NCBI GenBank assembly: GCA_016874795.1
Contig: VGTG01000052.1
Span: 1 to 34,188 of the forward strand
DNA: 34,188 bases
From: Deltaproteobacteria bacterium
GTDB lineage: Bacteria; Desulfobacterota; Binatia; UBA12015
Direction of reading: 5' to 3'
Below the pieces are notes generated by a model, which did no database searches, was not told the origin of the DNA, and saw only the letters and a list, made by a program, of their open reading frames with translations. Made by a program: the position numbers and the translations under genes. How positions within the stretch are numbered: the first letter of the stretch is position 1; the number at the start of each line of letters is the position of its first letter. Of this stretch, positions 11,916 to 27,535 are shown piece by piece.

Positions 11916-12132
11916 GCCATTCCCGGCTCGGCCGGGGAACTTGCTCGCCGACCTCGCCAAGGAGATTGTCCCGAGGCCGCCTCGGCTGGTAGGGAGAGCA
12001 GGGGATCGCGGGGTGGCAGCCGGGATGCCGCGGCGCCCCCGACGTGGCCTTGCCTGAATAGGTCGGCGATGATGCCGTCTATGCAGGTCGGGGCGAAGCT
12101 CGCCCGCGGGGGCGCCTGACGGAACCAGAAGA
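11916..12132. promoter_or_regulatory. Divergent intergenic region upstream of the type II secretion operon
   Basis: These 217 bases separate the minus-strand glycosyltransferase gene from gspF, so a promoter for the secretion run is expected here. A perfect inverted repeat of 6 bp, CCGAGG-ccg-CCTCGG, lies at 11971-11985 and could be an operator or a short hairpin. I could not find a convincing -35/-10 pair or a sigma-54 -24/-12 pair on either strand. The regulatory role is inferred from gene arrangement only. Confidence 0.4.
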
Positions 12133-13359
12133 ATGGCCCAGTTTCAGTACCGCGCTGCGGATGGTGAAGGCAGAGTCCTCGAGGGCCTGATCGAGGCCGC
12201 CGAGGTCTCGGGCGCCGTCGCGCGCCTGCAGGAGCGCGGGCTCATTCCGCTGCGGGTCGCCGCACCCGCGCCGAAGCGAAGCGGCCTCGCGAGCATCTCG
12301 CTCCCGCAGCTCAGCCTGAAGAAGCGCGTCAAGCGACGCGATCTGCTCGTCTTCACGCACGAGCTGTCGACGCTCCTCGGAGCCGGCCTGCCGCTCGATC
12401 GAAGCCTCTCGATCCTGTCCGAGCTCTCCGAGAACCCGGAGATGAAGGCGGTCGTCGCGGACATCCTGCAGTCGGTGCAGCGCGGCAAGTCGCTCGCCGA
12501 ATCGCTCGCGCAGCATCCCAAGGTCTTCGAGCCGCTCTTCATCAACATGGTGAAGGCGGGCGAGATCGGCGGCGTGCTCGACACCGTGCTGCAGCGGCTG
12601 ACGGAGTACCTCGAGAGCGCGAGCGAGCTCCGCGACGAGGTCCGCTCCGCGATGATCTATCCCGTGATCCTTCTCCTGACCTCCTTCATCTCGGTCACGA
12701 TCCTCCTGACCTACGTCTTGCCGAAGTTCGCGACGATCTTCTCGCAGGGCGGCGCGACGCTTCCCTTCACCGCGCGCATGCTGATGGGCGTGTCCGACGC
12801 GATGCGGTCGTACTGGTGGCTCGGCATCCTGATCATCGTCGCCGGCGCCGTCGGCGTGACGCACTGGATCCGAACGCCGGCGGGACGCCTGCAGTGGGAC
12901 CGGACGCGGCTCCGGCTCGTCCTCCTCGGCGATCTGGCGAGGAAGATCGCCGTCGCACGGTTCGCGCGGACGCTCGGCACGTTGCTCCGGAGCGGCGTTC
13001 CGATGCTCCAGGCGCTCGACATCGTGCGGGACGTCTCCGGGAACGTCGTGCTCGCCCACGCCGTCGACGAGGTGAAGGTCGGCGTCCGCGGCGGCGCGGG
13101 CGTTGCGGGGCCCTTGAGCCACAGCGGCGTCTTCCCGCCGCTCGCGCTCCAGATGATCAGCGTCGGCGAGGAGACGGGCCGTCTCGACGACATGCTCGTG
13201 CAGGTCGCCGACTACTTCGATCGCGAGGTCCGGGTCACCGTGAAGCGGCTCACCTCGCTCCTCGAGCCGGTTCTCCTTCTCGTCGGCGGCGTGGTCGTCG
13301 CCTTCGTCGTGCTGTCGATGTTCTCGGCGATCTCCAGCGTCAACAACATGCCGCTCTGA
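12133..13359 (+). CDS. gspF: Type II secretion inner-membrane platform protein GspF
   Basis: GspF is the polytopic core of the type II secretion inner-membrane platform and normally contacts the GspE ATPase. The 408-residue product begins MAQFQYRAADGEGRVLEG, the usual GspF/PilC opening. It contains two T2SSF domains (about residues 70-195 and 270-395), each starting with a helix bundle (FTHELSTLLGAGLPLDRSL and FARTLGTLLRSGVPMLQAL). Membrane segments lie near 170-195, 225-245 and 375-400. It opens the secretion run; normally gspE would lie just upstream, but here there is a divergent gene. The ribosome binding site is weak (GAAG close to the ATG). A 39-base gap separates it from gspG. Confidence 0.97.
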   Translation: MAQFQYRAADGEGRVLEGLIEAAEVSGAVARLQERGLIPLRVAAPAPKRSGLASISLPQLSLKKRVKRRDLLVFTHELSTLLGAGLPLDRSLSILSELSENPEMKAVVADILQSVQRGKSLAESLAQHPKVFEPLFINMVKAGEIGGVLDTVLQRLTEYLESASELRDEVRSAMIYPVILLLTSFISVTILLTYVLPKFATIFSQGGATLPFTARMLMGVSDAMRSYWWLGILIIVAGAVGVTHWIRTPAGRLQWDRTRLRLVLLGDLARKIAVARFARTLGTLLRSGVPMLQALDIVRDVSGNVVLAHAVDEVKVGVRGGAGVAGPLSHSGVFPPLALQMISVGEETGRLDDMLVQVADYFDREVRVTVKRLTSLLEPVLLLVGGVVVAFVVLSMFSAISSVNNMPL

Positions 13360-13398
13360 GCGAAGCGGTGAAGCCGTGCTTCGGAAGGAGTCTCAGTC

Positions 13399-13842
13399 GT
13401 GACCTCGGAAGATAGGAAGAAGGCTCCCCTCACGGGGCAGGCGGGCTTCACGCTGATCGAGCTGCTCGTCGTGCTCGTCATCATCGGCCTCCTCGCGACA
13501 CTCGTCGCGCCGAACTTCATCGGCCAGAGCGAGAAGGCGAAGCCAAAGGCGGCGCGCGTGCAGCTCGAGAACCTGCGCAACGCGCTCGACATGTTCCAGC
13601 TCGACGTCGGTCGCTATCCGACGACCGACGAGGGGCTCGAAGCACTGATCCTCCGGCCGAGCACGGCTTCGCGGTGGGCGGGCCCCTATCTGCGCGACGA
13701 GATGCCCAAGGATCCGTGGGGCAATCCCTACTTCTATCAGAGCCCCGGAGAGAGCGGCTCGAGCTACGACATCGGTAGCCATGGCAGTGACGGTCGCTCG
13801 GGTGGTGACGGAACCGGCGTCGACATCGTCGTCTCCGGCTGA
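13399..13842 (+). CDS. gspG: Major type II secretion pseudopilin GspG
   Basis: GspG is the main subunit of the periplasmic pseudopilus that pushes folded cargo through the secretin. The start is GTG 13399, with a strong GGAAGGAG eight bases upstream. The 147-residue prepilin has a short leader ending at Gly16 and the motif GFTLIELLVVLVIIG (Phe17 methylated, Glu21 as E5). GRYPTTDEGLEALI and DPWGNPYFYQSPG are GspG hallmarks. The C-terminal calcium loop reads SHGSDGRSGGDGTGVD, a variant of the usual ...LGADG.EGG... sequence. Processing needs a prepilin peptidase (GspO/PilD), which is not encoded in this window. The strong ribosome binding site fits its high copy number relative to the minor pseudopilins. 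Confidence 0.98.
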   Translation: MTSEDRKKAPLTGQAGFTLIELLVVLVIIGLLATLVAPNFIGQSEKAKPKAARVQLENLRNALDMFQLDVGRYPTTDEGLEALILRPSTASRWAGPYLRDEMPKDPWGNPYFYQSPGESGSSYDIGSHGSDGRSGGDGTGVDIVVSG

Positions 13843-13876
13843 GCCGCACCTGCGGCGCGCCGCCGCGGAAACGCGA

Positions 13877-14353
13877 ATGCTCGTGCGAGAAGCGCGAGAG
13901 GCTTCCGGCTTCACGCTGATCGAGCTGATCGTCGTGCTGTTCATCATCGCGATGGCGGCGGCGCTCGTCGGACCGGCGATCGACTCCGGCATGCGGACGC
14001 GTGAGGTGCGGAGCGCCGTGCGCGCGCTCGCGAGCGCCGTGCGCACGATGCAGGGCGACGCGGTACGGACGGGCAAGGTGCAGACCCTCGTGCTCGATCC
14101 CGTGCAGAACCTGATCGGGGTGGACGGAACGGACCGCGCGATCTCGCTCGGCGAGGTCGCGCGCCTCGCGGAGCTGTCGGACGTGTCGGTCGACTCGAGC
14201 GGCGTCGCGCGCGTGCGATTCTTCCCGAACGGGAGCAACAGCGGCCTCTCCGTTCTCGTCGACGATCCCGATCGCCCCGAGGACCTCGGCTACGTCGTGC
14301 ACGTCGACCCGCTGATCGGCTCGGTCATCGTCCTGGACGAGCAGCGCAAATGA
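13877..14353 (+). CDS. gspH: Minor type II secretion pseudopilin GspH
   Basis: This minor pseudopilin is believed to join the pseudopilus tip region. The prepilin motif is SGFTLIELIVVLFIIAM, with cleavage after Gly11 and Glu16 in the E5 position. The rest is a beta-rich GspH/FimT-type domain ending VVHVDPLIGSVIVLDEQRK. ATG 13877 gives 158 residues and a normal short leader. A longer in-frame reading from 13781 would run inside gspG and is less likely. It starts 34 bases after gspG, and its stop overlaps gspI as ATGA. The H assignment rests on operon position and the GspH-like fold; sequence identity in this family is low. Confidence 0.9.
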   Translation: MLVREAREASGFTLIELIVVLFIIAMAAALVGPAIDSGMRTREVRSAVRALASAVRTMQGDAVRTGKVQTLVLDPVQNLIGVDGTDRAISLGEVARLAELSDVSVDSSGVARVRFFPNGSNSGLSVLVDDPDRPEDLGYVVHVDPLIGSVIVLDEQRK

Positions 14354-14772
14354 GGCGACAGCGCGGCTTCACGCTGATCGAGATCGCGATCGGAATGGCG
14401 ATCCTCGGTATCGGCGTCGTTTCGGCGCTCGAGGTGTTCGGCAGCGCGGTCCGCGTGGCGCGCATCTCCGCCCGCCGGACGGAAGCGATCATGCACGCGA
14501 AGGCGCTGATGGACTCGTCCCTCTGGGCGCCCGAGTTCCAGCACGCGGTCTCGCACGGCGAGATCGGCGACGGGTTCCGGTGGGAGCGCACGATCCGCGT
14601 CGCCGGCCCGGACGACGGCGTCGTCGGCGAGATCCGGACGGACGTCCGCCTGTCCGTGGTGACGGTCCTCGTCGAATGGGACGACCCGAACGGCGTCAAG
14701 TCCTATCAGCTCGGCACGATGCGGATCGAGCCGAACTACGAGGACCCGACCGCACCGCAGCCGCCGTCATGA
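14350..14772 (+). CDS. gspI: Minor type II secretion pseudopilin GspI
   Basis: GspI nucleates the GspI-J-K tip complex of the pseudopilus. The 140-residue product starts MRRQRGFTLIEIAIGMAIL: a very short leader, cleavage after Gly6, and Glu11 at position five. The following helix (VSALEVFGSAVRVARI) and the length match GspI. The Pro-rich end is short. ATG 14350 overlaps the gspH stop, and the gspI stop overlaps gspJ; both overlaps are ATGA, implying translational coupling and near-equal output of the minor pseudopilins. Confidence 0.93.
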   Translation: MRRQRGFTLIEIAIGMAILGIGVVSALEVFGSAVRVARISARRTEAIMHAKALMDSSLWAPEFQHAVSHGEIGDGFRWERTIRVAGPDDGVVGEIRTDVRLSVVTVLVEWDDPNGVKSYQLGTMRIEPNYEDPTAPQPPS

Positions 14773-15557
14773 CGAACCGCACGCCAACCGCAGCTCGCCC
14801 GGCCCGGAGCCGGTCCGAAGCCGGCTTCACGCTCCTCGAGCTCTTGATCTCTCTGACGCTCGTGGTCGTGATGGTCGCGATGACCTTCAGCGTCTTCGCG
14901 ACCGCGATGACGGCGGTGCCCCGCGGCGAGGAGGCCGCGGACCGCTCCGGACGTCTCCGGATGGCGACGGCGCTCCTGACGCGTCAGGTGCGCGCTCTCG
15001 TGGACTACCCGGCCGAGACGGAGGAGGAGATCCACTCGTTCTTCATCGGAGACGAGCAGAACTTCAGCTTCATCACCGCGGCGCCGCAGCTCGGCGGCGG
15101 CGAGGGCCTCGGCTGGGTCACGTACTCGACCGACGGGAAGCAGCTCAAGATGGCCGAGCGCCTGATCTTTTCGACCGGCGCGGTTTCGGAGAAGGAAGAG
15201 GAGGAGGGCACCGTCCAGGAGCCCGAGCAGGAGGTCCCGGCCGCGGAGGCGGTCCTCCTCGACAACCTGAAGAGCGCGCGGTTCCAGTATCTGCGGCTCG
15301 ACGGCAGCGAGGGCGAGTGGCTCGACGGCTGGGACGGTCTCGAGGAGCAGGGGCCGCCGGCGGCGATCCGTGTCGTGCTCGACGGGGTCGGGATCGGCGA
15401 CTCGTACTGGGTGCAGGAGATCCCGGTGATGGCCGTGGTCTACGCGCTCGGCGGCTACGACTCCGACACCGGTCTCTACGACAACGACACGGACGAGGTC
15501 TTCGGATTCGAAGAAGACGAAGGCGTCTCGGACTTCGAGGAGAGCGAAGAGGAATGA
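14769..15557 (+). CDS. gspJ: Minor type II secretion pseudopilin GspJ with acidic insert and tail
   Basis: GspJ is part of the tip complex that initiates pseudopilus assembly. The prepilin motif is AGFTLLELLISLTLVVVM, with cleavage after Gly19 and Glu24 at position five; about 18 residues of basic leader precede it. The body contains DNLKSARFQYLRLDG and AAIRVVLDGVG, typical of GspJ. At 262 residues it is longer than the usual roughly 200. The extra length is an acidic insert around residues 140-155 (EKEEEEG...PEQE) and a C-terminal tail rich in Asp and Glu (from about residue 232). The tail could bind calcium or contact cargo, which is speculative. Both ends overlap neighbours by ATGA. Confidence 0.93.
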   Translation: MTNRTPTAARPARSRSEAGFTLLELLISLTLVVVMVAMTFSVFATAMTAVPRGEEAADRSGRLRMATALLTRQVRALVDYPAETEEEIHSFFIGDEQNFSFITAAPQLGGGEGLGWVTYSTDGKQLKMAERLIFSTGAVSEKEEEEGTVQEPEQEVPAAEAVLLDNLKSARFQYLRLDGSEGEWLDGWDGLEEQGPPAAIRVVLDGVGIGDSYWVQEIPVMAVVYALGGYDSDTGLYDNDTDEVFGFEEDEGVSDFEESEEE

Positions 15558-16585
15558 GAGCCGCCGGCAGATCGCCTCGTCGCCCGCGTTCGATTCTCCG
15601 GATCCTCCGGGGCGACCGGCGCGGCTTCGCGCTCCTGATCGTCCTCTGGATCTTCATCATCCTCGTCGCCGTCGGCGCCGAGTTCTCCGGCGAGATGCGC
15701 GAGGACGCCGGAGCGACCGCAAACTTTGCAGGCGAGACGCAGAGCTACTATCTTGCTACCGCAGCAGCCAACCGCACGTTCTACCGTGCCTTGACCGCCC
15801 GGGACGAAGCCAAGCTCGACGTCCCGCCGGAGGAGCTGGAAGAGGGGGAGGAGCCTCTTGTCGTGATCGACGGGGAGTGGCATCGCGACGAGATCTGGGG
15901 CGCTCCGGTGTGGGTGAGGATCATCGACGAGACGGGAAAGATCCCGATCAATTTGGTCGAGGAAAATTTGCTGCGGACGATCCTCGGGAACATGGGCCTC
16001 GAGCCGGACCACGCTTCCGAGATCGCCGCTTCGCTCCTTGACTGGCGCGACCCCGACGACGAATCGCGGCCGAACGGTGCGGAGAGCGACTACTACCTCG
16101 ATCAGCCCAAGCCCTACATGGCGAAGAACGCGAAGCTCGACTCTCTCGAGGAGCTGCTCCTCGTGCGCGGCGTGACCTACGACCTCTACCACGGCGGTAC
16201 CGAGGACTTCCCGATCGGGCTGAAGGAGATCTTCTCCGTCTTCAACCGCAGGCCGTCTCTCAACGTGCGCTCGGCCTCCCCCGAGGTCCTGAAGATCCTC
16301 TTCAACCTCGACGACGAGCAGCTCCAGCAGATCATCGATCAGCGAGCGAGCGGTCTCGGCTCGGTCTTCCAGATCCTGCAGACGCTGCTGCCCGATCCGA
16401 CGCTGGGCGACCTCCTGACGGACGAGACGCCGAACCTCCTCATCGTCGACATCCAGGCGCAGATGCCGGGCTCGCCGGTCCCGGCGCGCGTCGCCGCCGT
16501 CGTCGATCTCGGCGAGTCGAACGAGGGCGTCTACATCCTGCGCTGGTACGACCAGCTTCCCGTGGACGAGGAGCTGCACGCGTGA
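15554..16585 (+). CDS. gspK: Type II secretion minor pseudopilin GspK
   Basis: GspK caps the pseudopilus tip as a large minor pseudopilin. The prepilin segment RRGFALLIVLWIFIILVAVG cleaves after Gly24 and lacks the position-five Glu, which is the family rule for GspK and separates it from the other pseudopilins. The 343-residue length matches GspK. Downstream are an IIDETGKIPINLV segment, LLDWRDPDDESRPNGAESDYY (inserted alpha domain with acidic residues able to bind calcium), LEELLLVRGVTYDLY and SVFNRRPSLNVRSASPEVL, all typical. The ATG overlaps the gspJ stop, and its stop overlaps the GTG of gspL. Confidence 0.96.
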   Translation: MRAAGRSPRRPRSILRILRGDRRGFALLIVLWIFIILVAVGAEFSGEMREDAGATANFAGETQSYYLATAAANRTFYRALTARDEAKLDVPPEELEEGEEPLVVIDGEWHRDEIWGAPVWVRIIDETGKIPINLVEENLLRTILGNMGLEPDHASEIAASLLDWRDPDDESRPNGAESDYYLDQPKPYMAKNAKLDSLEELLLVRGVTYDLYHGGTEDFPIGLKEIFSVFNRRPSLNVRSASPEVLKILFNLDDEQLQQIIDQRASGLGSVFQILQTLLPDPTLGDLLTDETPNLLIVDIQAQMPGSPVPARVAAVVDLGESNEGVYILRWYDQLPVDEELHA

Positions 16586-18030
16586 GTCGACCGAGCTCCG
16601 CCCGGCTGCTGCGCAGCGTGACCCGTCTCGATTTCCTCGACGGGCTCGGCATCGCGATCGGCCGCCGCAGCGTCGGCTTCGCGCATCTCGTGAAGCGGCT
16701 CGCGACCGTCACCCTGCAGCATCACCGGGTCGTCCCGCTGCCGCCGCCGGAGCAGGCCGCCGATCGCCGCATCGCGCTGACGGCCGCGGTGCGGCTCTTT
16801 CTCGACGAGTCCGGCGTCAAGACGGATCGCGTGTTCGTCAGCGTGCCGCGGAGCCTCGCGCTCGTGTCGCGTCTCTTCCTGCCTTCCGCCGCGAAGTCGG
16901 ACCTGAACCAGGTCGTCGAGTTCGAGCTCGATCGTCTGATCCCCCTCGATCGCGGCGAGGTCTACTTCGACTTCCTGAGCCGCGAGGCCGGCGAAAAGGT
17001 CGAAGTGCTCGTGATGAGCATGCCGCGGCGTCCTGCTGCCGAGATCCTCGACGCGCTCGAGGAGGGCGGCGCGCGCGTCCGGAGCCTCGTCGTCACGCCG
17101 CTCGCGATGCTCGACTGGATGCACTTCGCTCGCGTCTCGTTCGACGGTCCGCTCGCCCTGCTGGTCGACGACGGCGGCAGCGTCGAGCTCGATCTCGTGT
17201 CCGGCGGAGAGCTCGTCGCGAGCCACGTCGTCAAGGCCGCGGAGGTCGAGACGGAAGCCGCCGTCGCGAGCCTCGTCGGTCGCGAGGTGTCCGCGCTCGG
17301 AGGCGGCGCGGGCGAGGCGCGCTCGTACTCCGTCGCGCTCGCGAGCGCTTCCGCCGAGTTCGGGGCACCCTCGGCGCACACGCTTCCCGAGAACGTCCTC
17401 GCGACCGGCCGGGATCTCCTCGCTCTCGGGAAAGGCGTTCTCGCGGCGCCGGACGGCTTCTTCGAGGCCGCGCCCGCCGGGCTGCTCCCCGCGATCGGTG
17501 CGGGCCTGGAGGCGGTGCGCGAGGGCGAGACGAGCTTCAACCTCCTTCCCCCCGAAGAGCGCCGCGCGGTGGAAGAGGGCGCCCCGGTCATCACGTTCTT
17601 CCTCGCCGCCGTGCTGGTCCTCGTCTCGCTCGTCTGGGTCGTGAGCGCGATGGTCAAGGACCAGGTGATGCTCGCTTCGCTGCGGAACCAGTTCGAGGAG
17701 CTCGAGCCCAGGATCCGCGCGGTGCACGCGCACGACGACGAGGCGGACAGGCTCCGCGAGAAGCTCACCGTGCTGACGAGCGACGATCACGTGCGGAACT
17801 CGCTCTTCCTCCAGGAGCTGACGCGGGTCATCCCCAAAGGCGCCTACTTGACGGCGTTTCGCGTGCGCAGCGGCCGGGTCGAGGTCGAGGGCTTCGCCGC
17901 CTCGGCTTCCGAGCTCGTGCCGCTGCTCGAGAAGTCGCCGCTCTTCCAGAACGCGCAGTTCACCTCGCCGGTGACGAAAGTGCAGAACAACGAGGAGCGC
18001 TTTTCTCTCACGACGGAGATCGCGAAGTGA
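16582..18030 (+). CDS. gspL: Type II secretion inner-membrane protein GspL
   Basis: GspL links the cytoplasmic GspE ATPase to the inner-membrane platform. The 482-residue product has an actin-like cytoplasmic half (PilM-like; LGIAIGRRSVGFAHL near the start, VFVSVPRSLALVSRLFLP, VEFELDRLIPL). One membrane helix lies at about residues 337-359, followed by a coiled segment and a periplasmic ferredoxin-like domain (PilN-like; LQELTRVIPKGAYLTAFRV, VEVEGFAAS). This PilM-PilN fusion is the standard GspL layout. The start is GTG 16582, overlapping the gspK stop (GTGA), and the stop overlaps gspM the same way. Its presence implies that a GspE exists elsewhere in the genome. Confidence 0.93.
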   Translation: MSRPSSARLLRSVTRLDFLDGLGIAIGRRSVGFAHLVKRLATVTLQHHRVVPLPPPEQAADRRIALTAAVRLFLDESGVKTDRVFVSVPRSLALVSRLFLPSAAKSDLNQVVEFELDRLIPLDRGEVYFDFLSREAGEKVEVLVMSMPRRPAAEILDALEEGGARVRSLVVTPLAMLDWMHFARVSFDGPLALLVDDGGSVELDLVSGGELVASHVVKAAEVETEAAVASLVGREVSALGGGAGEARSYSVALASASAEFGAPSAHTLPENVLATGRDLLALGKGVLAAPDGFFEAAPAGLLPAIGAGLEAVREGETSFNLLPPEERRAVEEGAPVITFFLAAVLVLVSLVWVVSAMVKDQVMLASLRNQFEELEPRIRAVHAHDDEADRLREKLTVLTSDDHVRNSLFLQELTRVIPKGAYLTAFRVRSGRVEVEGFAASASELVPLLEKSPLFQNAQFTSPVTKVQNNEERFSLTTEIAK

Positions 18031-18839
18031 GAGATCTCCTCGCGAACCTGCTCGGACGCTTGCAGGCGACGAATCGTCAGCAGCGTCTGTACCTCCTGCT
18101 CGGCGTCGTCGTCTTCGTCTTCGTCGCCCGCTTCGGCGTGTCGTGGTTCCTCGAGTACCGCGAGGACGTCAAGAACGAGATGCGCTTGACGGCACAGCGG
18201 CTCGCGGGCGCGCGGCGGCTCCTCGAGCGCGCCCCGGAGACCGAGCGCCAGCTCGAGCGGCTGCGCGAGCGCTACCGTGCGACGGTCGCAGGTCTCGTTC
18301 CGGGCGACTCTCCGACCCTTGCCGCGGCCGAGCTGCAGGAGCGTGTCTCCGACCTGGCGGCGGAGAAGAAGGTGCAGATCCAGACGATGCAGGTCCTGAA
18401 GGACGAGCCGCTCGGCCCGTTCCGTCAGGTCTCGCTGCGCGTCACGGCCTCGGGCGACCTGCGGAACGTCGCCGACCTGCTCGCGGCGCTCGAGTACGGG
18501 GACCTCCGCGTGAGCATCCCGTTCATCGAGCTCAGCAGGCGTGGCGCCGCGATCCGCCGAGCGACGCCGGTGCAGGTTTCTCGCCTCGTCTCGGCGACCC
18601 TGCAGATCGCGGGCGTCGTGCGCGTCTCGGCCGAGGGGGAGGGCGTGACCGAGGTCTCGGTCGACGAAGGCGATGCCGAGAAGCCCGACGGAGCACGGCC
18701 CGATCCGGCGTCGCCCGAGAGCGCGGCACCGTCCGCGGGAGCGGCTGCTCCGCCGCTGCCCGTCCCGGAGATCGAGACACCGCGCGAGCCGATTCCCGAC
18801 GATCCGCTCGGCACGGCGGCTCGGGTGACGCAGCCATGA
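18027..18839 (+). CDS. gspM: Type II secretion inner-membrane protein GspM (PilO-like) with Pro/acidic tail
   Basis: GspM pairs with GspL in the platform. The 270-residue product has a short cytoplasmic N-terminus, one membrane helix (about 20-38), a coiled coil rich in Arg, Glu and Leu (about 45-95), and a ferredoxin-like periplasmic domain (FRQVSLRVTASGDLRNVADLLAALE region, about 125-205). The last 60 residues are rich in Pro, Ala, Glu and Asp and look disordered, which makes this version longer than typical GspM (about 160-200). The start is GTG 18027, overlapping the gspL stop. The assignment rests on position and fold pattern; GspM sequences are poorly conserved. Confidence 0.87.
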   Translation: MRDLLANLLGRLQATNRQQRLYLLLGVVVFVFVARFGVSWFLEYREDVKNEMRLTAQRLAGARRLLERAPETERQLERLRERYRATVAGLVPGDSPTLAAAELQERVSDLAAEKKVQIQTMQVLKDEPLGPFRQVSLRVTASGDLRNVADLLAALEYGDLRVSIPFIELSRRGAAIRRATPVQVSRLVSATLQIAGVVRVSAEGEGVTEVSVDEGDAEKPDGARPDPASPESAAPSAGAAAPPLPVPEIETPREPIPDDPLGTAARVTQP

Positions 18840-19540
18840 AGCGATTCCGTCTTCTGAACGTCCTTCTCCTCGCTTTGATCGGGCTCGCGACGTGGCGGAC
18901 GGTGGACGTGTGGCGGAGGACGCCACCGAGCCTCTCCGCGGGAGAGGAGCCGCCGCCGCCGACCGACCTCTCCGTCGCTCCGCGCAAGCCGAGCTTGCCG
19001 GAGTTGGTGAACGTGATCGCGAGCCAGGACGTGTTCGATGCGTCGCGCCAGGAGGGCACGAGCGGAGTGGACGAGACGCTGCCGCAGGCGACGCCGGTGC
19101 CTCCGCCGACGCTGAAGCTTTCGGGCGTTCTCTTCGTCGGCCTCGAGCCCGAGGCGGTCTTCACCGACACCGCGCAGTCGAACAAGCAGGTCCGCTTGCG
19201 GATCGGCGAGGAGATCGCGGGCTACAAGGTCGACCGGATCGAAGCGGAGTTGGTCGCGCTCGTCACGGGAACGGGCGAAGAGGTCGTGCTGCCGCTCCTC
19301 ATCGACACGACCTCGCGCGGCGGAGCCGTCGCCTTCGGCCCGGGAGGCCGCGCGACGCCGCGGCCGAACGCGACGCTCGTGCGACAAGCGAGCGGCCAGC
19401 GACCGGATCAACCCGGAGGGTTCGCGGCGAACGATCCGCAAGGAATCGCGGAGCAGCGGCGCGAGGACGCGCGGCGACGCGCCGAGCGCGCGCGCGAACG
19501 TCTGAAGCGCCTTCGTGCCGAGGCCGCACGCAACCGGTGA
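18836..19540 (+). CDS. gspC: GspC-like type II secretion clamp protein (HR domain, no PDZ)
   Basis: GspC connects the inner-membrane platform to the N0 domain of the secretin. The 234-residue product has one membrane helix (about 6-20), a Pro-rich linker, the conserved lead-in IASQDVFDASR (the Ile...LF type motif of GspC), and a homology-region beta domain (about 92-157: LKLSGVLFVGLEPEAVFTD, VRLRIGEEIAGYKVDRIE). No PDZ domain follows; instead there is a long Arg- and Glu-rich segment (about 200-234) likely to be helical. PilP or GspN-like annotation is possible, since PilP shares the HR fold, but position next to gspD and membrane topology favour GspC. Its ATG overlaps the gspM stop. Confidence 0.78.
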   Translation: MKRFRLLNVLLLALIGLATWRTVDVWRRTPPSLSAGEEPPPPTDLSVAPRKPSLPELVNVIASQDVFDASRQEGTSGVDETLPQATPVPPPTLKLSGVLFVGLEPEAVFTDTAQSNKQVRLRIGEEIAGYKVDRIEAELVALVTGTGEEVVLPLLIDTTSRGGAVAFGPGGRATPRPNATLVRQASGQRPDQPGGFAANDPQGIAEQRREDARRRAERARERLKRLRAEAARNR

Positions 19541-19604
19541 GGGGAACGAGTTGAGTTTTACAAGCCAGGGCCAACTCGGCTACACCCCGCCGAAGAGGGG
19601 AGGA

Positions 19605-22100
19605 ATGGGTCGTCGGGGTTCACGTCGTGGCTCGCGCAGGCGAGTCGAGAGGAAAGGCGCGCTCTTCGCGTTCCTCGTCCGGCGTGCGCCGATGCTGCTT
19701 CCTTTCGTGATGGCTCTGGCTCTGCACGCCGACGCGCAGGACGCGCCGCCTCCGCCTCCCGCCGCCGCTCCGGCGGCCGCAGCACCCGGCTCGCTGCCGG
19801 CGCCGCAGGCCGCGCCGATGAACGGGGCACCCGCGGAAGACGCGATCGTCTTGAACTTCGAGGCCGCGGACATCCGCGAGGTCGTGCACAGCCTCGCGAG
19901 CGCGCTCGAGATCAACTACTTGATCGACCCCCGCGTCGAGGGTCTCGTCACGATCCGCACGACGGGCAAGATCCCGCGCAGCGAGCTCTTCCCGATCTTC
20001 AACCAGATCCTGCGCAGCATCGGCGTCGCCGCGGTTCGCGTCGGAGAGGTCTACAACATCGTGCCGATCGCCGACGCGAAGACGCGCGTCGTCGTTTCGC
20101 GCGCGGCGTTGGCGGGGATGACGGCGGACGATCTCTTCGTCGTCGAGCTCGTGCGCGTGCACAACATCGCCGCCGAGGAGATGGCGAATCTCCTGCAGCC
20201 GTTCATCACGCCCGGCGGGGACGTCATTCCGTACGCGCGCGCGAACTTCCTGATCATCACGGACATCGCGAGCAACGTCGATCGCCTGCGCGAGATGGTC
20301 CAGCTCCTCGACCGCGACAGCTTCAAGGACCTGAAGGCGAAGATCTACAAGGTCGAGAACGCGAACATCGAGGACCTCGGCCAGGAGCTGATCGCGGTCC
20401 TCGACACGTACGGGATCACCGGCGAAGCCGCGAACGAGCGCGGCGTATACGCGATCCCGCTGATCCGGCTGAACTCGATCGCCGTCCTCGCGTTCAACGA
20501 GCAGGCCTTCGCTTCCATCGACTACTGGTTGAAGCTCCTGGACGTGCCGCCGGACGAGTCGTCGACGCGCACGGTGCGGGTCTACAACGTGCAGAACGCG
20601 AAGTCCGCCGACCTCGCCGCGGTGCTGAACGAGCTCTACGGCGGCGGCGAGGGTGGCTCCTCGTCGAACCGGCCCGGGTCGGCGGCGGGACAGCCCGGCT
20701 TCGGCGGCCTCTTCGGAAGGGCGACCGGCGGGCAGCTCTCCAGCAGCCGGCGCTCCGGCGGCGCGGCCGCGAGCTCTTCGGGCCTCGGCGGCGCCTCGCA
20801 GTTCGGCGGCGGTGGCGGCGGTGGTGGCGGCTTCGGAAGCGGCGGCGGTGGCGGCGGTTTTGGCGGTGGACGCTCGGGAGGGGGGTTCGGCGGAGGTGGT
20901 TCTGCGCGACCGGCGGGAGTGCTCGGCGGTGCACCCGGCTCTGGGTTTCGCGCCGGAGGGGCGTCCGGCGTCGTCCTCGCCGGAGGTGAAGGACCGCTCT
21001 CGCTGTTCAAGGAAGAAGTGCGCATCGTCGCGGACGAGATCTCGAACTCGCTGGTGATCCTCGCGACGAAGCAGGACTTCGAGCAGATCCGAAAAGTCCT
21101 CGTCGACCTCGACCGCGTGCCGCGTCAGGTGGTGATCGAGGTGCTGATCGCCGAGATCAGCCTCAACAAGGCGATGGAGATGGGCCTGCAGACGGTCCTC
21201 ACGAATTCCGGCGCCATCCAGGACGCACCGACGCCCGTTCCGACGGCGACGTCGACGGTGTCGGGCGCCGCCCTCAGCAACGCGCTGCAGGACGTCGCGA
21301 ACGGCAGCGCGCTGAAGCGTCTCCTCGAGATCACGCCGGGCGTTCAGGGCAACACGTTCACCGCGATCATCACCGATCAGTCGAGCTTCCAGGTGACGCT
21401 GACGGCACTCGCCAACGCGAATCGCCTGAAGGTGCTCGCGAGCCCGCACATCTTGACGGCCGACAACCGCGAAGCGGCGATCAACGTCGGTCAGTCGATT
21501 CCGATCTTGACGTCGACGCAGCAATCGACGGCGGTGGTCTCGAACATCGTCAACAGCGTCCAGTACCGCGACACCGGCGTGATCCTGAACATCCTGCCGC
21601 AGGTGAACGCGGACGGGCTCGTCAACCTGCAGGTGCGGCAAGAGGTCAGCGAGGTCGACGACAACTTCAACAGCACGACCGGCTCGCCCGCGTTCATTCT
21701 CCGGGAAGCGGAGACGACCGCGGTCGTGCAGGACGGCGATTCGCTGCTGATCGGCGGCATCATCCAGGAGACGACGTCGCGCGGTCGCTCCGGCGTACCC
21801 TACCTCATGGATCTTCCCGTGGTCGGTCGATTCTTCCGGGCCGATACCGACAGCGTCCGTCGCGTCGAGCTGATCATCATGCTCACGCCGCACGTGATCC
21901 GGAACCGCGCCGAGTCGATCGAGGTGACACAGACCTACAAGGATCGCTTGTGGGACGTCGTCGACGAGATCGAGCGCACGAAGGGCATGGTCCCGCCGAC
22001 GCAGGAGCAGCTCCGCAAGCAGCAGCGACTCCGCAGCCGTACGACGACGGCGGAGCGCCCGCGTGAAGGCCTGCTTCCGAACCAGGATTGGGAGGACTGA
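19605..22100 (+). CDS. gspD: Type II secretion outer-membrane secretin GspD
   Basis: GspD forms the outer-membrane channel for folded exoproteins. The ATG 19605 (GAGG six bases upstream) gives 831 residues with a basic n-region and a hydrophobic signal (APMLLPFVMALALHA) ending near ADAQ. TTG 19551, also with a good GAGGGG six bases upstream, is an alternative that adds 18 residues. Domains in order are N0 (about 80-155), N1 (175-237), N2 (243-320), N3 (from 323) split by a glycine-rich insert (about 346-465), and the secretin beta-barrel (505-772) with the signature VPYLMDLPVVGRFFR. The C-terminal S-domain region is Arg-rich. The gene sits last in the secretion run rather than at its head. 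Confidence 0.97.
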   Translation: MGRRGSRRGSRRRVERKGALFAFLVRRAPMLLPFVMALALHADAQDAPPPPPAAAPAAAAPGSLPAPQAAPMNGAPAEDAIVLNFEAADIREVVHSLASALEINYLIDPRVEGLVTIRTTGKIPRSELFPIFNQILRSIGVAAVRVGEVYNIVPIADAKTRVVVSRAALAGMTADDLFVVELVRVHNIAAEEMANLLQPFITPGGDVIPYARANFLIITDIASNVDRLREMVQLLDRDSFKDLKAKIYKVENANIEDLGQELIAVLDTYGITGEAANERGVYAIPLIRLNSIAVLAFNEQAFASIDYWLKLLDVPPDESSTRTVRVYNVQNAKSADLAAVLNELYGGGEGGSSSNRPGSAAGQPGFGGLFGRATGGQLSSSRRSGGAAASSSGLGGASQFGGGGGGGGGFGSGGGGGGFGGGRSGGGFGGGGSARPAGVLGGAPGSGFRAGGASGVVLAGGEGPLSLFKEEVRIVADEISNSLVILATKQDFEQIRKVLVDLDRVPRQVVIEVLIAEISLNKAMEMGLQTVLTNSGAIQDAPTPVPTATSTVSGAALSNALQDVANGSALKRLLEITPGVQGNTFTAIITDQSSFQVTLTALANANRLKVLASPHILTADNREAAINVGQSIPILTSTQQSTAVVSNIVNSVQYRDTGVILNILPQVNADGLVNLQVRQEVSEVDDNFNSTTGSPAFILREAETTAVVQDGDSLLIGGIIQETTSRGRSGVPYLMDLPVVGRFFRADTDSVRRVELIIMLTPHVIRNRAESIEVTQTYKDRLWDVVDEIERTKGMVPPTQEQLRKQQRLRSRTTTAERPREGLLPNQDWED
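20806..20905 (+). repeat. Glycine-codon-rich low-complexity tract inside gspD
   Basis: This 100-base stretch is built of GGC, GGT and GGA codons with scattered TTC and AGC. It encodes a run of glycines broken by Phe and Ser within the N3 domain insert of the secretin. Such imperfect GGN repeats are prone to length change by slippage; each three-base change would only alter loop length. It forms the densest part of a longer Gly/Ser-rich insert covering about 20641-20990. Confidence 0.8.
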
Positions 22101-23713
22101 GCGTCCTTCGCCACGCGGGCGCCGTTCTCGTCCTCGCGGCCCTCGTCGCGGCATCGTACGGCGGGACGATCGGCCACGGCTTCGTCTTCGACGACTGGCA
22201 CCTCGTCGTCGAGAACCCGGTCGTGCGCTGGCCGCTCGCGCGCGCGCCCGAGCTGCTCGACTTCGGAGCGGGCGGGATCTCGTATCGACCGCTCCGGATG
22301 CTGTCGTACATGGTGGACTACCGGGTCGGCGGCCTCGAGCCGGCGGCCTTCCACGCGAGCAATCTCACCTATCACCTGGCCGCGACGCTCGCGCTCTACG
22401 CGCTCGCGTTCGCCACGATCGGCTCGCTCGGCGGCGCGCTCTTCGCGGCGGCGCTCTTCGCGGTACATCCGCTCGGGAGCGAAGCGGTGGCGTACGTCTC
22501 GGGCCGGCGCGATCTCCTGCTCGCGCTCTTCTCGCTGCTCGCGCTGCTCTGCTGGTGGGGCACGCTCGACGCCGCGGCGAGTATGCCGAAGCGGATTGCG
22601 ACGTCGCTCCTCGCGTCGCTCTTCGCGGCACTCGCCCTCGCCGCGAAGGAGAACGCCGCGGTGGTCCCCCTCCTCGGTGCGCTGCTCGTCGTCGTTCGTC
22701 GGCGACGCGACGGGATCGCGACTTCGGTTGGACGCGCCGGTGGGATCGCGCTCGTGCTCGCCACGGTCGTCCTCGTCATCGTCGCGCGCGAGCTCTATCT
22801 CGAGCGCATCTACGAAGCGTTCGAGCGTCTCGGCGGAGCCGCCCTCGCCCCGCAGCCGGCGCTGACGCTGCAGGTTCTCGCCCGCTACGGCGGTCTCGCA
22901 GTCTGGCCGATCGACCTGCGTGCCGACTATCGACCGCCCGGATGGCCGCTCCCCGAGTCCCCCTTCGACGCGAGCTCCGTCGTCGCAGCTCTGGGGCTTG
23001 CCGCCGTCGTCGCTGGCGGTGTCTGGCTCGCGTGGCGGGGGCACATCGCGGGGGCGGGCCTTCTCTGGTTCGTCGCGGCGCTCCTTCCCGTGGCGCAGAT
23101 CGTCCCGTACGGGGAGATCGTGGCGGAGCACAACGCCTACCTTCCGCTCGCGGGCCTGTCGCTCGCGGCCGGCGAGGGCGCGGATGCGCTCGCACGCCGT
23201 CGTCCGCGCTTCGCGATCGCCGTCTGCGCGATCATCGTCGTGTTGCTGGGCGTGCGCGCACACGCGCGCTCGAGCGACTGGAGCGACGACGAGACGCTCT
23301 GGGCCGCGACGATCGAGAGCGTGCCGCGCTCGGCGCGGGCGCGGCAGAACCTCGGCGTCTCGCTGGCGCGACGAGGTCGACTCGAGGCGGCACGCGGTGC
23401 GCTCGAGGATTCGCTGGAGCTTGCGCCGCGCGAGGTCGAGGTGATGCACGCTCTCGCGACGATCTCCGGACGTCTCGGTGAGACCGAGCGCGCGCAAAGG
23501 CTGGCACGGCGTGCCGTGCAGGTACGGAAGGACGCCGGCACGCTCACGTTCCTCGGCTGGGTGTACCTCGCGGAGGGATCGCCGCGCGCCGCGGAGAAGA
23601 CGTTCCGGGCGGCGCTGCGTCTGGACCGGAAGAATCGCGAGGCGCGGCGCGGGCTCGAAGAGATCCGCTTCCGCTACCGGAGCGCGCCGGGCATGGGTGG
23701 AGGTCGCGGTTGA
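22088..23713 (+). CDS. TMTC-like polytopic glycosyltransferase with C-terminal TPR repeats
   Basis: The product has about 541 residues: roughly ten membrane segments followed by TPR repeats (about 410-530: ARQNLGVSLARRGRLEAA, TLTFLGWVYLAEGSPRAA). The first periplasmic loop has FVFDDWHLVVENP, with the Asp pair expected in GT-C enzymes. YRPLRMLSYMVDY, HPLGSEAVAYVSGRRDLL, AAKENAAVVP and AEHNAYLPLAG are features shared with eukaryotic TMTC protein O-mannosyltransferases and their bacterial homologues. By analogy it may move a sugar from a lipid carrier to a periplasmic acceptor; the acceptor is unknown. The start is TTG 22088, inside the gspD end, or possibly CTG 22097, which overlaps the gspD stop; no ATG or GTG fits. 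The stop overlaps the Wzm start. Confidence 0.85.
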   Translation: MGGLSVLRHAGAVLVLAALVAASYGGTIGHGFVFDDWHLVVENPVVRWPLARAPELLDFGAGGISYRPLRMLSYMVDYRVGGLEPAAFHASNLTYHLAATLALYALAFATIGSLGGALFAAALFAVHPLGSEAVAYVSGRRDLLLALFSLLALLCWWGTLDAAASMPKRIATSLLASLFAALALAAKENAAVVPLLGALLVVVRRRRDGIATSVGRAGGIALVLATVVLVIVARELYLERIYEAFERLGGAALAPQPALTLQVLARYGGLAVWPIDLRADYRPPGWPLPESPFDASSVVAALGLAAVVAGGVWLAWRGHIAGAGLLWFVAALLPVAQIVPYGEIVAEHNAYLPLAGLSLAAGEGADALARRRPRFAIAVCAIIVVLLGVRAHARSSDWSDDETLWAATIESVPRSARARQNLGVSLARRGRLEAARGALEDSLELAPREVEVMHALATISGRLGETERAQRLARRAVQVRKDAGTLTFLGWVYLAEGSPRAAEKTFRAALRLDRKNREARRGLEEIRFRYRSAPGMGGGRG

Positions 23714-24501
23714 TCTCCCGGCCGATCCGCGAGCTCGGGCGGCAGCGCGAGCTCCTCGGCTCGCTCGTGATGCGCGAGCTTCGCGGACGCTACGTCGGGT
23801 CCTCGGCGGGCCTCTTCTGGGCGGTGCTGAGCCCGCTCGCGCAGCTCGTGATCCTGACGACGGTGTTCTCGGCCGTGCTGCAGATACGGCTCGGCGGGCC
23901 GGCCGGGGTGCCGTTCGCCGTGACCCTGGCGTGGGGGCTCTTTCCCTGGCTGGCGCTCCAGGAGGGCCTCTCGCGGGCGACGACCTCCCTGGTCGAGGGG
24001 GGAATCCTCATCCGGAGGATGGCCTTCAAGCCGGAGATCCTGGTGGTCCAGCCGGTGCTCGCGGCGGTCGTTCTGGAGCTCGTGGCGCTGCTGCTGCTGA
24101 TCCTGGCGATGCCCCTTCTGGGCCAGGGGCCGGCGTCCTCGGTCGCCCTTTGCGCCATCCCGCTCGTTCTCCAGGTCGCCTTCGGGGTGGGGATCGGTTG
24201 GATTCTTGCGGTCCTCCACGTCTATTTCCGCGATACGGCCCAGCTCGTGACGGCCGTTTTGCAGGCATGGTTCTACCTGACGCCGATCGTGTACACGCTG
24301 GAGGTCGCTCCGGAGTCGCTCCGCGGGCTCCTCTCGCTGAATCCTCTCTGCGGCATTGTGGAGGGATTCCGGGCATTTGCGATCGGACTGCCGGTCTCCT
24401 GGGGAGCCCTGGCATGGAGCACCGGCTGTGCGGTGGCCGCAGTGGCGGTGGGCGCCTTCGCCATCGAGCGGGCGCGCAGCGAGATCGCGGACCTGGTATG
24501 A
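23710..24501 (+). CDS. wzm: ABC-2 type polysaccharide export permease (Wzm)
   Basis: This is the inner-membrane permease that pairs with Wzt to move a lipid-linked polysaccharide to the periplasm. The 263-residue product has six predicted membrane helices and the ABC-2 transporter pattern: an amphipathic N-terminus (LLGSLVMRELRGRYVGSSAGLFWAVLSPL), AWGLFPWLALQEGLSRATTSLVEGG, VYFRDTAQLVTAVLQAWFYLTPIVY and LNPLCGIVEGFRAF. The start is TTG 23710, overlapping the previous stop (TTGA), with GGAGGT six bases upstream as clear support. Its stop overlaps the ATPase gene by ATGA, so the two subunits are coupled. Confidence 0.95.
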   Translation: MISRPIRELGRQRELLGSLVMRELRGRYVGSSAGLFWAVLSPLAQLVILTTVFSAVLQIRLGGPAGVPFAVTLAWGLFPWLALQEGLSRATTSLVEGGILIRRMAFKPEILVVQPVLAAVVLELVALLLLILAMPLLGQGPASSVALCAIPLVLQVAFGVGIGWILAVLHVYFRDTAQLVTAVLQAWFYLTPIVYTLEVAPESLRGLLSLNPLCGIVEGFRAFAIGLPVSWGALAWSTGCAVAAVAVGAFAIERARSEIADLV

Positions 24502-25724
24502 CCGCCGTTCGCGCCGCCGGGGTCGGAAAGGCATTCCGCCGCTATTCGCGGCCCGCTGATCGGGCCCGCGAGTGGCTCCGGGGTGGTGTCCGCCACCAGC
24601 TCTTCTGGGCGGTGCGCGACGTGTCGTTCGAGATCGAGCGCGGCGACACTCTCGGGATCGTCGGCGACAACGGCGCCGGGAAGACGACCCTTCTCGCCAT
24701 GCTCGCGGGCGCGGTGACTCCGACCGAGGGGGCGCTCCGCACCGAGGGCCGCGTCGGCTCGATCCTCGAGCTCGGGGCCGGCTTGCACGGGGAGTTCAGT
24801 GGGCGCGAGAACGTGTTCCTCGCCGGTCAAGCGCAAGGTCTGACGCGCGAGCAGATTGAGGCCGAGGTGCCCGGCATCCTCGGGTTTTCCGAGCTCGGCG
24901 AGTTCATCGACCAGCCCGTCCGCACGTACTCGTCCGGGATGTTCCTCCGCCTCGCCTTCTCCGTCGCCACGGCCGTCCGACCGGACGTGCTCGTCGTCGA
25001 CGAAGCTCTCGCGGTCGGCGATCAGCGTTTTCAGGCGAAATGCGCCGAGCGCATCGACGGCTTCGTTCGCGACGGCGGCACGTTGATCTTCTGCTCGCAC
25101 AACCTCTACCAGGTGAAGAAGCTCTGCCGACGCGCGATCTGGCTCGAGCGCGGCCGCGTCGTGCAGCTCGGCTCCGCCGCCGAAGTGTGCGACGACTATG
25201 CGGATCGAAGCCGCAATCGCGCGCATTCCGCGCGGCTTGGGCTCACCGAGGGCGCGGCTCCGCTGCTCGAAGTCGTGCGCGTGGAGGCGAGCGACGCGGC
25301 AGGACGTCCGCTCCTGCGCGCCGAGACGGGCGACTCGATCGTGCTGCGCGTCTGGCTTCGGCGGATGCCCGGAGCCGAGGTCGAGCCCGGCGTCGCGGTC
25401 GGCGTCGTGCGCTCGGACGGGCTCGTCTGCCACTGTGGATCGACCGACGTCGACGGTGCGAGCCTTCTGCCTGTCGGAGTCGACCAGTTCTTCGTTTCTC
25501 TACACCTGCAGGAGCTGCCGCTCTTCGGTGGCTCGTACCACTTCAACGTGGCGGCGATCGACAACCGCCGCCCGCTGATCATGCTCGACGTCAAGGAGGG
25601 GGAGGCGCCGTTTTCGGTCGTGAACCCGAAGACGGATTGGGGCGTGAGCCGGCTGCCGCATTCCTGGGGCCACGAAGGCGCCGAGATCGCGGAAGTCGCC
25701 GCACGCGAGGAACATCGTGCGTAG
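24498..25724 (+). CDS. wzt: Polysaccharide ABC transporter ATPase with glycan-recognition domain (Wzt)
   Basis: This is the ATPase partner of the adjacent Wzm permease. The 408-residue protein contains Walker A GDNGAGKTT (56-64), signature YSSGM (144-148), Walker B VLVVDE (164-169) and an H-loop His at 201. The C-terminal part (about 245-400) is a beta-sandwich carbohydrate-binding domain like that of Wzt O9a, which selects glycans with the right terminus. It differs clearly in that domain from the truncated Wzt at the window's start, so the two exporters probably handle different glycans. ATG 24498 overlaps the wzm stop; its own TAG lies inside the start of the lipoprotein gene. Confidence 0.95.
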   Translation: MTAVRAAGVGKAFRRYSRPADRAREWLRGGVRHQLFWAVRDVSFEIERGDTLGIVGDNGAGKTTLLAMLAGAVTPTEGALRTEGRVGSILELGAGLHGEFSGRENVFLAGQAQGLTREQIEAEVPGILGFSELGEFIDQPVRTYSSGMFLRLAFSVATAVRPDVLVVDEALAVGDQRFQAKCAERIDGFVRDGGTLIFCSHNLYQVKKLCRRAIWLERGRVVQLGSAAEVCDDYADRSRNRAHSARLGLTEGAAPLLEVVRVEASDAAGRPLLRAETGDSIVLRVWLRRMPGAEVEPGVAVGVVRSDGLVCHCGSTDVDGASLLPVGVDQFFVSLHLQELPLFGGSYHFNVAAIDNRRPLIMLDVKEGEAPFSVVNPKTDWGVSRLPHSWGHEGAEIAEVAAREEHRA

Positions 25725-26172
25725 AGGAGAGCCGATCACCGCATCCCGGTCGGGGTCCGAGCGGTACGCCTTGGGCGGGCTCGCTCTGGCGCTGACCGTC
25801 GGGTTCGCGGTTTTCGGCTGCGCACGGGATTCCAACGCGGGCGGTCTCGGGGATCGCGCCCAGAAGTACATGGAGCTCCGCCAGAAAGGCAGCTGGGAGG
25901 AGATCTACGAGGGGATGGTGGACCCGGACTCGAAGCCGAAGCTCAGCCGGGATGCCTTCATGGAGCGCCGCAAGTCGGCGTTCGACATCCTCGAGTTCGA
26001 GGTCGTTTCGGTCGAGGAAACGGAAGGCCAGGGAGTCGTCCGTGCCCGGATGCAGGCGGTCCTTCCCGTCCTGAAGCCCGGAGGCGGTACCCTGAGCGTC
26101 CGCCGCGAGCTCGACGACGCCCAGAAGTGGGTCCAGCGGGATGGCCGCTGGTACATCCAGTTGCGCGGCTGA
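25717..26172 (+). CDS. Small lipoprotein of unknown function
   Basis: The 151-residue product has a long n-region, one hydrophobic stretch (residues 18-34) and a lipobox-like Val-Phe-Gly-Cys with Cys35 as the predicted lipidated residue. The mature part resembles small alpha+beta NTF2-like folds: an opening helix (RAQKYMELRQKGSWEEIYEGM), a middle segment with ERRKSAFDILEFEVVSVEETEG, and a final strand pair ending GRWYIQLRG. That fold is inferred from pattern only. The GTG start lies inside the end of wzt (8-base overlap), so it belongs to the export operon and is its last gene. It may be an envelope accessory of glycan export; no specific function can be assigned. Confidence 0.75.
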   Translation: MRRGEPITASRSGSERYALGGLALALTVGFAVFGCARDSNAGGLGDRAQKYMELRQKGSWEEIYEGMVDPDSKPKLSRDAFMERRKSAFDILEFEVVSVEETEGQGVVRARMQAVLPVLKPGGGTLSVRRELDDAQKWVQRDGRWYIQLRG

Positions 26173-26195
26173 TGGAGGCGGAAACGAGAGGAGAA

Positions 26196-26227
26196 AAGCG
26201 GGCTTGGGCCGGCCGGGACGCCCGCTT
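26196..26227. terminator. GC-rich hairpin downstream of the long operon
   Basis: A perfect 8-bp stem (AAGCGGGC, 26196-26203, with GCCCGCTT, 26220-26227) encloses a 16-base loop that itself contains GGCCGGCC. It begins 24 bases after the lipoprotein stop. On the plus strand no U-run follows; on the minus strand the arm is followed by TTTTC, so it looks more like a terminator for transcription from the right. It may simply stabilise the 3' end of the upstream mRNA. Confidence 0.35.
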
Positions 26228-26243
26228 CGGAGGGGCAGTCCGG

Positions 26244-26273: not shown

Positions 26274-26275
26274 AC

Positions 26276-27509: not shown

Positions 27510-27535
27510 TACGCGTCTCCGCGTTTCACTGCGCT

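Follow-up and report, generated by a model that had tools for sequence, protein, structure and literature searches.

The window analysed here is a stretch of 34,188 nucleotides that makes up the entire contig C52 (VGTG01000052.1) of the 6.27-Mb draft genome of a Deltaproteobacteria bacterium (Binatia; UBA12015). On its plus strand, genes of a type II secretion system (T2SS) are joined through a TMTC-like glycosyltransferase gene to wzm and wzt. Below, G numbers denote genomes, f numbers families in the class, L numbers loci and C numbers contigs. The T2SS genes begin with gspF (12133-13359; PF00482, E 1e-62) and the major pseudopilin gene gspG (13399-13842; PF08334, E 1e-38), followed by gspH (13877-14353; N_methyl, with GspH at 20.4 bits against a cut-off of 21 when scanned from 13781), gspI (14350-14772; assigned by N_methyl and position only), gspJ (14769-15557; N_methyl, T2SSJ below cut-off), gspK (15554-16585; PF21687, E 8e-19, over the cut-off), the PilM/PilN-like gspL (16582-18030; PF05137, PF11104) and gspM (18027-18839; PF10741, E 2e-13). 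A gspC-like gene (18836-19540), assigned by position with a best NCBIfam GspC match of 20.8 bits against a cut-off of 150, precedes the secretin gene gspD (19605-22100; TIGR02517, 482 bits, cut-off 351). Directly downstream lie the gene for the TMTC-like GT-C glycosyltransferase, which carries C-terminal tetratricopeptide repeats (TPRs) according to Pfam and an AF2 model (22088-23713), wzm, encoding an ABC-2 permease (23710-24501; PF01061, E 1e-13), and wzt, encoding an ABC ATPase with a Wzt_C domain (24498-25724; PF00005; PF14524, 34.7 bits, cut-off 30.4). The adjoining ABC-2 permease and Wzt_C ATPase identify the pair as a Wzm/Wzt exporter; its scores with the NCBIfam galactan Wzm/Wzt models were below cut-off. 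The next gene encodes a small lipoprotein (25717-26172; N-terminus judged by eye) that has no Pfam or NCBIfam family and whose own family is found beside T2SS or Wzm/Wzt genes.

The sequence-only reading had placed a T2SS operon fused to a glycan cassette at 12133-26172. Its genes and coordinates stand; what it leaves out is that the operon has no gspE and that the conserved unit runs past 26172. Beyond that point lie genes for a secreted protein (26481-27509; signal peptide judged by eye, position conserved in relatives), a beta-propeller (BNR) lipoprotein (27614-29047; PF13088, E 1e-17 when scanned from 27581) and a second GT-C enzyme of the PMT_2 type (29044-30912, start uncertain; PF13231, E 5e-7), all on the plus strand. 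O-antigen-type genes and a second Wzt gene occupy 3-7842 upstream.

Nearly all junctions from gspH to the lipoprotein gene had been described as stop/start overlaps, and this applies to ten of the eleven, gspC/gspD being the sole exception. Eight overlap by 4 bp (H/I, I/J, J/K, K/L, L/M, M/C, TMTC/wzm and wzm/wzt), gspD/TMTC by 13 bp and wzt/lipoprotein by 8 bp. The remaining gaps, said to be all under 70 bases, are 39 (F/G), 34 (G/H) and 64 (C/D) when gspH is taken to start at 13877 and gspD at 19605, while the secreted-protein gene follows the lipoprotein gene after 308 bases. In a crude scan of 11500-31200, no terminator-like or promoter-like site that would separate gspD from the TMTC-like gene appeared between 22000 and 26172, and no promoter-like site was found anywhere in the scanned range. 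Terminator-like sites on the plus strand lie inside gspL (16766-16795) and at the gspD start (19680-19697), and the nine sites in total show no clear excess over the 6.2 expected from shuffles. A strong terminator-like hairpin on the plus strand, seen by sequence scan 3' of the secreted-protein gene (27535-27567), has a counterpart in every readable locus (13 of 13, the window and 12 relatives, a fourteenth being masked; no shuffle control). Among relatives, TMTC and wzm overlap by 4 bp in 14 of the 16 loci holding both, with G005 (+17) and G006 (2293-bp insert) as exceptions; here the start codon closest to the upstream stop was chosen, which favours overlaps. The insert in G006 (L067, about 3156-5450) contains a long secreted-protein-like frame, another possible cargo. 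From gspF to the lipoprotein gene there is thus a single compact gene block, as proposed, and judging from the sequence its co-transcription is probable.

Conservation of the gspD-TMTC-wzm-wzt order was examined in 78 genomes, the genome of the window included. A close TMTC match (E 1e-50 or better) was present in 16, and gspD lies immediately upstream of it in all 14 cases where the contig reaches, the window among them, so that the adjacency put forward from the window holds in its relatives. The next gene after TMTC is wzm in 14 of the 16; in G006 the 2.3-kb insert intervenes, and in G010 no wzm was found within the 0.6 kb remaining before the contig end. Weaker TMTC matches in G043 and G077 are likewise preceded by gspD, with gspD-TMTC-wzm standing at a contig end in G043; the other twelve weaker loci have no gspD beside TMTC. 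The complete run from gspF to wzt, together with the lipoprotein, secreted protein and propeller, is present in families f1 and f6, between which the best segments of gspD share 46-61% identity.

A wider survey of 148 class genomes (wzt at E 1e-80, gspF at E 1e-115) yielded wzt in 30, gspF in 67 and both in 27, with wzt alone in G079, G082 and G083. The two genes share a contig in 15 of these 27 genomes, always on the same strand and with wzt 5.9-14.0 kb downstream, and two of the 15 are single-contig genomes (G029 and G080). In three more (G006, G013 and G018) wzt is linked through other T2SS genes, and in nine (G002, G007, G010, G012, G023, G043, G056, G067 and G078) gspF and wzt are on different contigs. 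By a rough estimate, for relatives that are not independent, the chance that one gene in 4.6 Mb falls within 14 kb of gspF is about 0.6%. Genes with a Wzt_C domain are scarce: only 27 of the 39 genomes searched have any, one to three each. The single such gene is the T2SS-linked one in four f6 genomes (G018, G024, G030 and G037) and in the single-contig G029, and in the f1 genomes G001, G004, G005, G008 and G011 the T2SS contig carries two Wzt_C genes out of a total of two or three. The linkage between T2SS and wzm/wzt is real and tight, and is common to at least three families of the class.

There is no gspE in the operon or elsewhere on the window contig. The genome holds three full matches of the GspE/PilB type and an equal number of GspF-type genes. 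We pair them as follows: a type IV pilus set on C3, another T2SS, in the usual C-D-E-F-G order, on C105, and the gspE of C57 (TIGR02533, 663.5 bits, cut-off 630) with the gspF of C52. The C57 gspE is flanked by genes for a GT2 glycosyltransferase, a GMD-like epimerase that we read as RMD, GMD and LptD. Although Pfam says only GT2, the glycosyltransferase is read as a polyprenyl-phosphate sugar synthase of the DPM type. This GT2 gene adjoins gspE in 10/10 f1 and 5/5 f6 loci, and gmd-rmd lies upstream of gspE in all eight f1 loci that reach and in 5/5 f6 loci; in G008 and G012 a wzt-wzm pair sits between rmd and gspE. Eight relatives have gspE and gspF on one strand of a single contig, gspE lying upstream by 21-27 kb in G002, G005 and G006 and by 3.6-10.3 kb in G018, G024, G030, G037 and G043. 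C57 terminates inside a gene for a 540-aa secreted protein. In G005 this gene is followed by a wzt-wzm pair and then by wzt0, the second Wzt-type ATPase gene with which C52 starts (3-1061, plus strand, cut by the contig start; PF00005, PF14524; conserved upstream in f1 relatives). Because of this order in G005, C57 and C52 are probably adjacent in the genome.

The locus varies among families. In f8 the order is gmd-rmd-gspE-gspF onward, and in f2 it is lptD-cupin-gspE-gspF in two of three loci (G014 and G070), the third (G041) being without lptD in the stretch seen. A different wzm-wzt follows gspE in f4, f10 and f16, each represented by one genome. Family f5 has a reduced T2SS, gspF-G-L-M-C-D, with no gspH-K between gspG and gspL in 7/7 loci looked at and M undetected in one (G056; L152); wzt is on the same contig in four of the seven, of which only G017 has TMTC. 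The reduced f5 loci are L149-L153, L159 and L065-L066, and two of them have a long gene between wzt and wzm (L150 12216-13910 and its L151 counterpart), which looks like one for a NodU-type carbamoyltransferase. In G011, where TMTC, lipoprotein, secreted protein and propeller are all missing, gspD overlaps wzm directly by 4 bp. In a quick Wzt tree (no bootstrap; f5 placement and the long branch of G017 unsure), the exporters at these positions fall in several clades, and therefore different exporters seemingly joined one T2SS locus.

Such variation bears on the main rival explanation, in which the genes share an envelope neighbourhood and no joint task: an old T2SS beside lptD would have gathered O-antigen genes at exchange hot spots, and the overlaps would reflect compact operons only. 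The lptD-cupin-gspE-gspF arrangement without a glycan exporter in G014 and G070, and the differing ABC exporters at differing spots in f1, f4, f10, f16 and f5, are what this explanation leads one to expect. However, the gspD-TMTC-wzm-wzt order and its tight junctions are kept from f1 to f6 despite the divergence of gspD, the sole Wzt_C gene of the four f6 genomes is at the T2SS locus, and a specific lipoprotein and secreted protein travel along in many loci. Considering both sides, we regard a merely shared neighbourhood as possible but on the unlikely side.

To characterize the TMTC-like enzyme, a structural model was compared with known folds, since Pfam detected TPRs and merely a weak PMT trace. 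The AF2 model, built from six sequences (pLDDT 84), presents a GT-C membrane domain, and VIA-align gave Z scores of 23.4 to yeast Stt3 (8agb_A; 332 residues, 4.3 Å), 21.3 to Pmt4 and 21.1 to ArnT; on the basis of this model, the enzyme has a GT-C fold. The TPR domain is located at about residues 410-532, and TPR domains usually bind peptides. The available part of the work on TMTC protein O-mannosyltransferases defines seven motifs (PMC7801869). The window protein shares with those enzymes, as described there, the GT-C fold, TPRs and the motifs DD, YRP, RxD and KE. It differs in having DY for DW and His for the Arg of ERxxY (EHxxY), the PxxP motif was not found in its listed form, and Pfam TMTC_DUF1736 was not detected at E 0.01, which is why we call the protein only TMTC-like. 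The Arg-to-His change in motif M7 was considered as a hallmark of gspD- or wzm-linked TMTCs, being present in 18/18 linked proteins having that segment and in 2/11 unlinked ones, and was dropped as 8/8 TMTCs looked at outside the class share the His. TMTC was also rejected as an indispensable link between T2SS and wzt, because it is lacking in G011 and in the f5 loci G062, G072 and G029.

Outside the class, we searched a phylum sample of 395 genomes (TMTC at E 1e-45 or better) and found TMTC in 14, of which 12 are outside the class. Larger stretches were seen for 11 of these 12 loci, and T2SS genes adjoin TMTC in one, G172. Its order is gspE-F-G-H-I, two lipoprotein-family genes, J-K-L-C-D, a secreted protein, TMTC and GT2, with M undetected; the TMTC passes DUF1736 (33.9 against a cut-off of 27), the GT2 is 52% identical to that beside the gspE of the window genome, and no wzm or wzt was found in the 40 kb seen. 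In another class of the phylum, about eight TMTC-like stretches are arrayed in tandem within 14 kb (L189; G449:C265:3001-16910).

These data also bear on whether the TMTC-like enzyme serves the polysaccharide, decorating the Wzm/Wzt glycan with a side-branch sugar in the periplasm while the T2SS is merely co-regulated with the coat. The GT-C fold is common to ArnT, and an ArnT-domain gene is listed in the wb O-antigen cluster of Aeromonas salmonicida A450, according to the available parts of the sources (PMC4483657, PMC4413209). The frequent 4-bp overlap of TMTC with wzm points in the same direction. Nevertheless, G172 combines T2SS, secreted protein, TMTC and GT2 without the exporter in the stretch seen, and the peptide-binding habit of TPR domains, a matter of general knowledge, speaks for a protein acceptor, so that service to the polysaccharide seems unlikely.

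The small lipoprotein and the secreted protein accompany the exporter in many loci. Members of the lipoprotein family occur in most f1/f6 and some f5 loci, usually beside a gene for a secreted protein. In f5, the order in G017 is gspD, TMTC, wzm, a repeat lipoprotein that we read as the propeller, the family lipoprotein, a secreted protein and wzt, and that in G029 is gspD, the family lipoprotein, a secreted protein, a small gene and wzt. Both family lipoproteins match that of the window (E about 1e-11). A match to the window's secreted protein was obtained for that of G017 (hmmsearch E 1.6e-5, hhalign 94.5%; E 1.7e-4 in a larger six-frame set). In f1, next to the other wzt-wzm pair, the gene of the 540-aa secreted protein is preceded by a further family member. 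Searched with the lipoprotein profile and the profiles of the two secreted proteins, ten control Wzt loci away from T2SS gave no match (0/10). The secreted-protein family is present in 17/78 genomes, all f1 or f6, of which 16 carry the TMTC of this island, and in G003 (87% complete) it is present with no island TMTC seen. Since many of these exporters have a secreted protein and a small lipoprotein for neighbours, a joint role, still inferred as in the sequence-only reading, is better grounded.

Two generalizations were tried and rejected. The lipoprotein as a mark of every T2SS-linked exporter fails at G011, G062 and G072, and also in the covered parts of G007, G023 and G067. A single family of all the secreted proteins is supported for G017 alone and not for the G029, G172 and f1 540-aa proteins. 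Strong expression of the secreted protein, considered from codon bias, was dropped as well: its ENC is the lowest of 20 window genes, and its rank varies from 2nd to 23rd across 13 relatives (e.g., 23 of 27 and 23 of 34). Five of ten paralogs of the secreted protein, two of which are cut by contig ends, have Pro/Thr-rich stretches (L160, L163, L167, L168 and L169), and such stretches are common O-glycosylation sites; L160 ends with a domain bearing a CVGCH haem-like motif. A small secreted Pro/Thr-containing protein is encoded near the second wzm of G005 and G006 (L074 9749-10699, minus strand, and its L128 counterpart).

The lipoprotein profile matches 40/395 phylum genomes, 38 of them outside the class, and we looked at 20 loci from 20 of these 38, picked among the better matches. 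Wzm or Wzt is near in nine and T2SS-type genes are near in five; the profiles behind the T2SS-type calls may match type IV pilus genes too. With the same profiles, T2SS-type genes were found in 0/10 Wzt loci, 1/11 TMTC loci (G172) and 0/10 paralog loci, and Wzt in 1/11 TMTC loci (weakly) and 0/10 paralog loci, some control loci being shorter than the lipoprotein loci. From these sequences, the partner of the lipoprotein seems to differ by lineage: T2SS in some, Wzm/Wzt in others, and both at the locus studied here.

The statement that T2SS and Wzm/Wzt genes are normally separate has a published exception in Aeromonas, and beyond that genus a search by title and abstract, mostly outside the subscription literature, found no further tie. 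As far as the available parts of the sources describe them (PMC4483657, PMC4413209), A. salmonicida A450 has T2SS genes and vapA between wzm and wzt, and in A. hydrophila AH-1 a broken wzm on one side and a complete wzm-wzt pair on the other flank a T2SS whose gene order, vapA included, is E-F-G-H-I-J-K-L-M-Orf2-D-vapA. Both the sps T2SS and the S-layer genes are described there as inserted among O-antigen genes, and the A. salmonicida S-layer as tethered by lipopolysaccharide. In these descriptions the Aeromonas sps/wb loci have in common with the window a dedicated T2SS by wzm/wzt, a secreted-protein gene nearby and an O-antigen locus of the ABC type; in the window, too, the T2SS genes are contiguous with both wzm and wzt. 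The likeness is one of gene order as described, which in AH-1 matches that of the window apart from the displaced gspE. In Aeromonas, spsE stays with the other T2SS genes and, in AH-1, vapA directly follows spsD, whereas in the window gspE is displaced, the TMTC-like enzyme joins gspD to wzm in an order kept across families, and the secreted-protein gene is placed after wzt and the lipoprotein gene. In Pseudoalteromonas, the gene of the S-layer protein Slr4 likewise adjoins a T2SS operon; unlike for the window locus, the available part of that source states no link to Wzm/Wzt or TMTC (PMC7821379).

The upstream genes of the window indicate what may be exported. After wzt0 come, on the plus strand, a wecB-like UDP-GlcNAc 2-epimerase gene (1040-2200; PF02350, E 4e-117), a gene for an O-antigen ligase/polymerase-like membrane protein (2197-3447; PF04932 Wzy_C, E 5e-10) and GT4 and GT2 glycosyltransferase genes of a glycan cluster (3450-7842, starts approximate; PF13692, PF00534, PF13439 and PF00535). 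By their sequences, these neighbours are consistent with an O-antigen as the exported polymer.

Gene identities, conserved order, compact junctions and the link of the lipoprotein family with these loci are observations, from which we infer a joint function. With moderate confidence we propose that a dedicated second T2SS resides in an ABC-transporter polysaccharide locus, and that its cargo, a surface protein, is glycosylated by the exported glycan or retained on it. In this proposal, Wzt/Wzm would export an O-antigen-like polymer, the GT2 beside the displaced gspE, if of the DPM type, would load the sugar donor, and the TMTC-like GT-C enzyme would transfer the sugar in the periplasm, with the T2SS cargo as the most likely acceptor. 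The T2SS would then export the cargo, for which the best candidates are the secreted protein encoded at 26481-27509 and its relatives, and by analogy with the Aeromonas S-layer the cargo may stay on the cell surface aided by the exported glycan. A stricter version is rather doubtful: gspE/GT2, the TMTC-like transferase, the lipoprotein and Wzm/Wzt would form one apparatus that glycosylates a surface protein, secretes it via the secretin and anchors it on its own polymer, the lipoprotein acting as an adaptor that links the cargo to the machine.

Several findings weigh against the proposed coupling of cargo and glycan. The same T2SS occurs without this wzt in f8 and f2, and in the f8 genomes G020 and G025 the Wzt_C gene and gspE are on different contigs. 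T2SS and wzt are found together without TMTC in G011 and the f5 loci G062, G072 and G029, and without the lipoprotein in the first three of these. Five of the twelve weaker TMTC loci lacking gspD have a weak Wzt-like ABC match nearby (28-31% identity), so that TMTC does not need T2SS. None of the 20 lipoprotein loci outside the class combines T2SS-type genes with Wzm/Wzt, and six have neither. The secreted proteins of G029, G172 and the f1 540-aa type are not provably homologous to the window candidate, and the AlphaFold model of the latter has a mean pLDDT of 30 and no usable fold; no PDB sequence match was found for it.

Another explanation assigns the secretin to the glycan itself, as an outer-membrane port by which the polymer, or a conjugate of polymer and protein, would leave through the T2SS. 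The reduced f5 systems, devoid of gspH-K between gspG and gspL and in four cases with wzt on the same contig, would suit such a port. On the other hand, the O-antigen ligase-like gene upstream and lptD near the gspE of C57 correspond to the ordinary route of ABC-exported O-antigen, and no precedent was found in the literature by title or abstract, so that we consider a glycan port very improbable.

The proposed coupling of cargo and glycan touches on how secreted coat proteins are retained outside Gram-negative cells, an open question for most phyla. From the conserved gene order it may be supposed that a surface protein, and the sugar by which it is decorated or held, are products of one locus. 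As the pairing is kept across at least three families, in many with its own transferase, sugar-loading enzyme and lipoprotein, the coupling is testable and the genes to test are named. The lipoprotein family can serve as a marker for locating similar loci elsewhere, and the host group is little studied and known mainly from metagenomes.

Two further frames were noted in the window. Between mutM and gspF, a membrane-protein-like frame without a Pfam family lies on the minus strand (10083-11558). A right-handed beta-helix (NosD-type) frame at 32314-34188 reaches the contig end; its last part matches a di-haem oxidoreductase.

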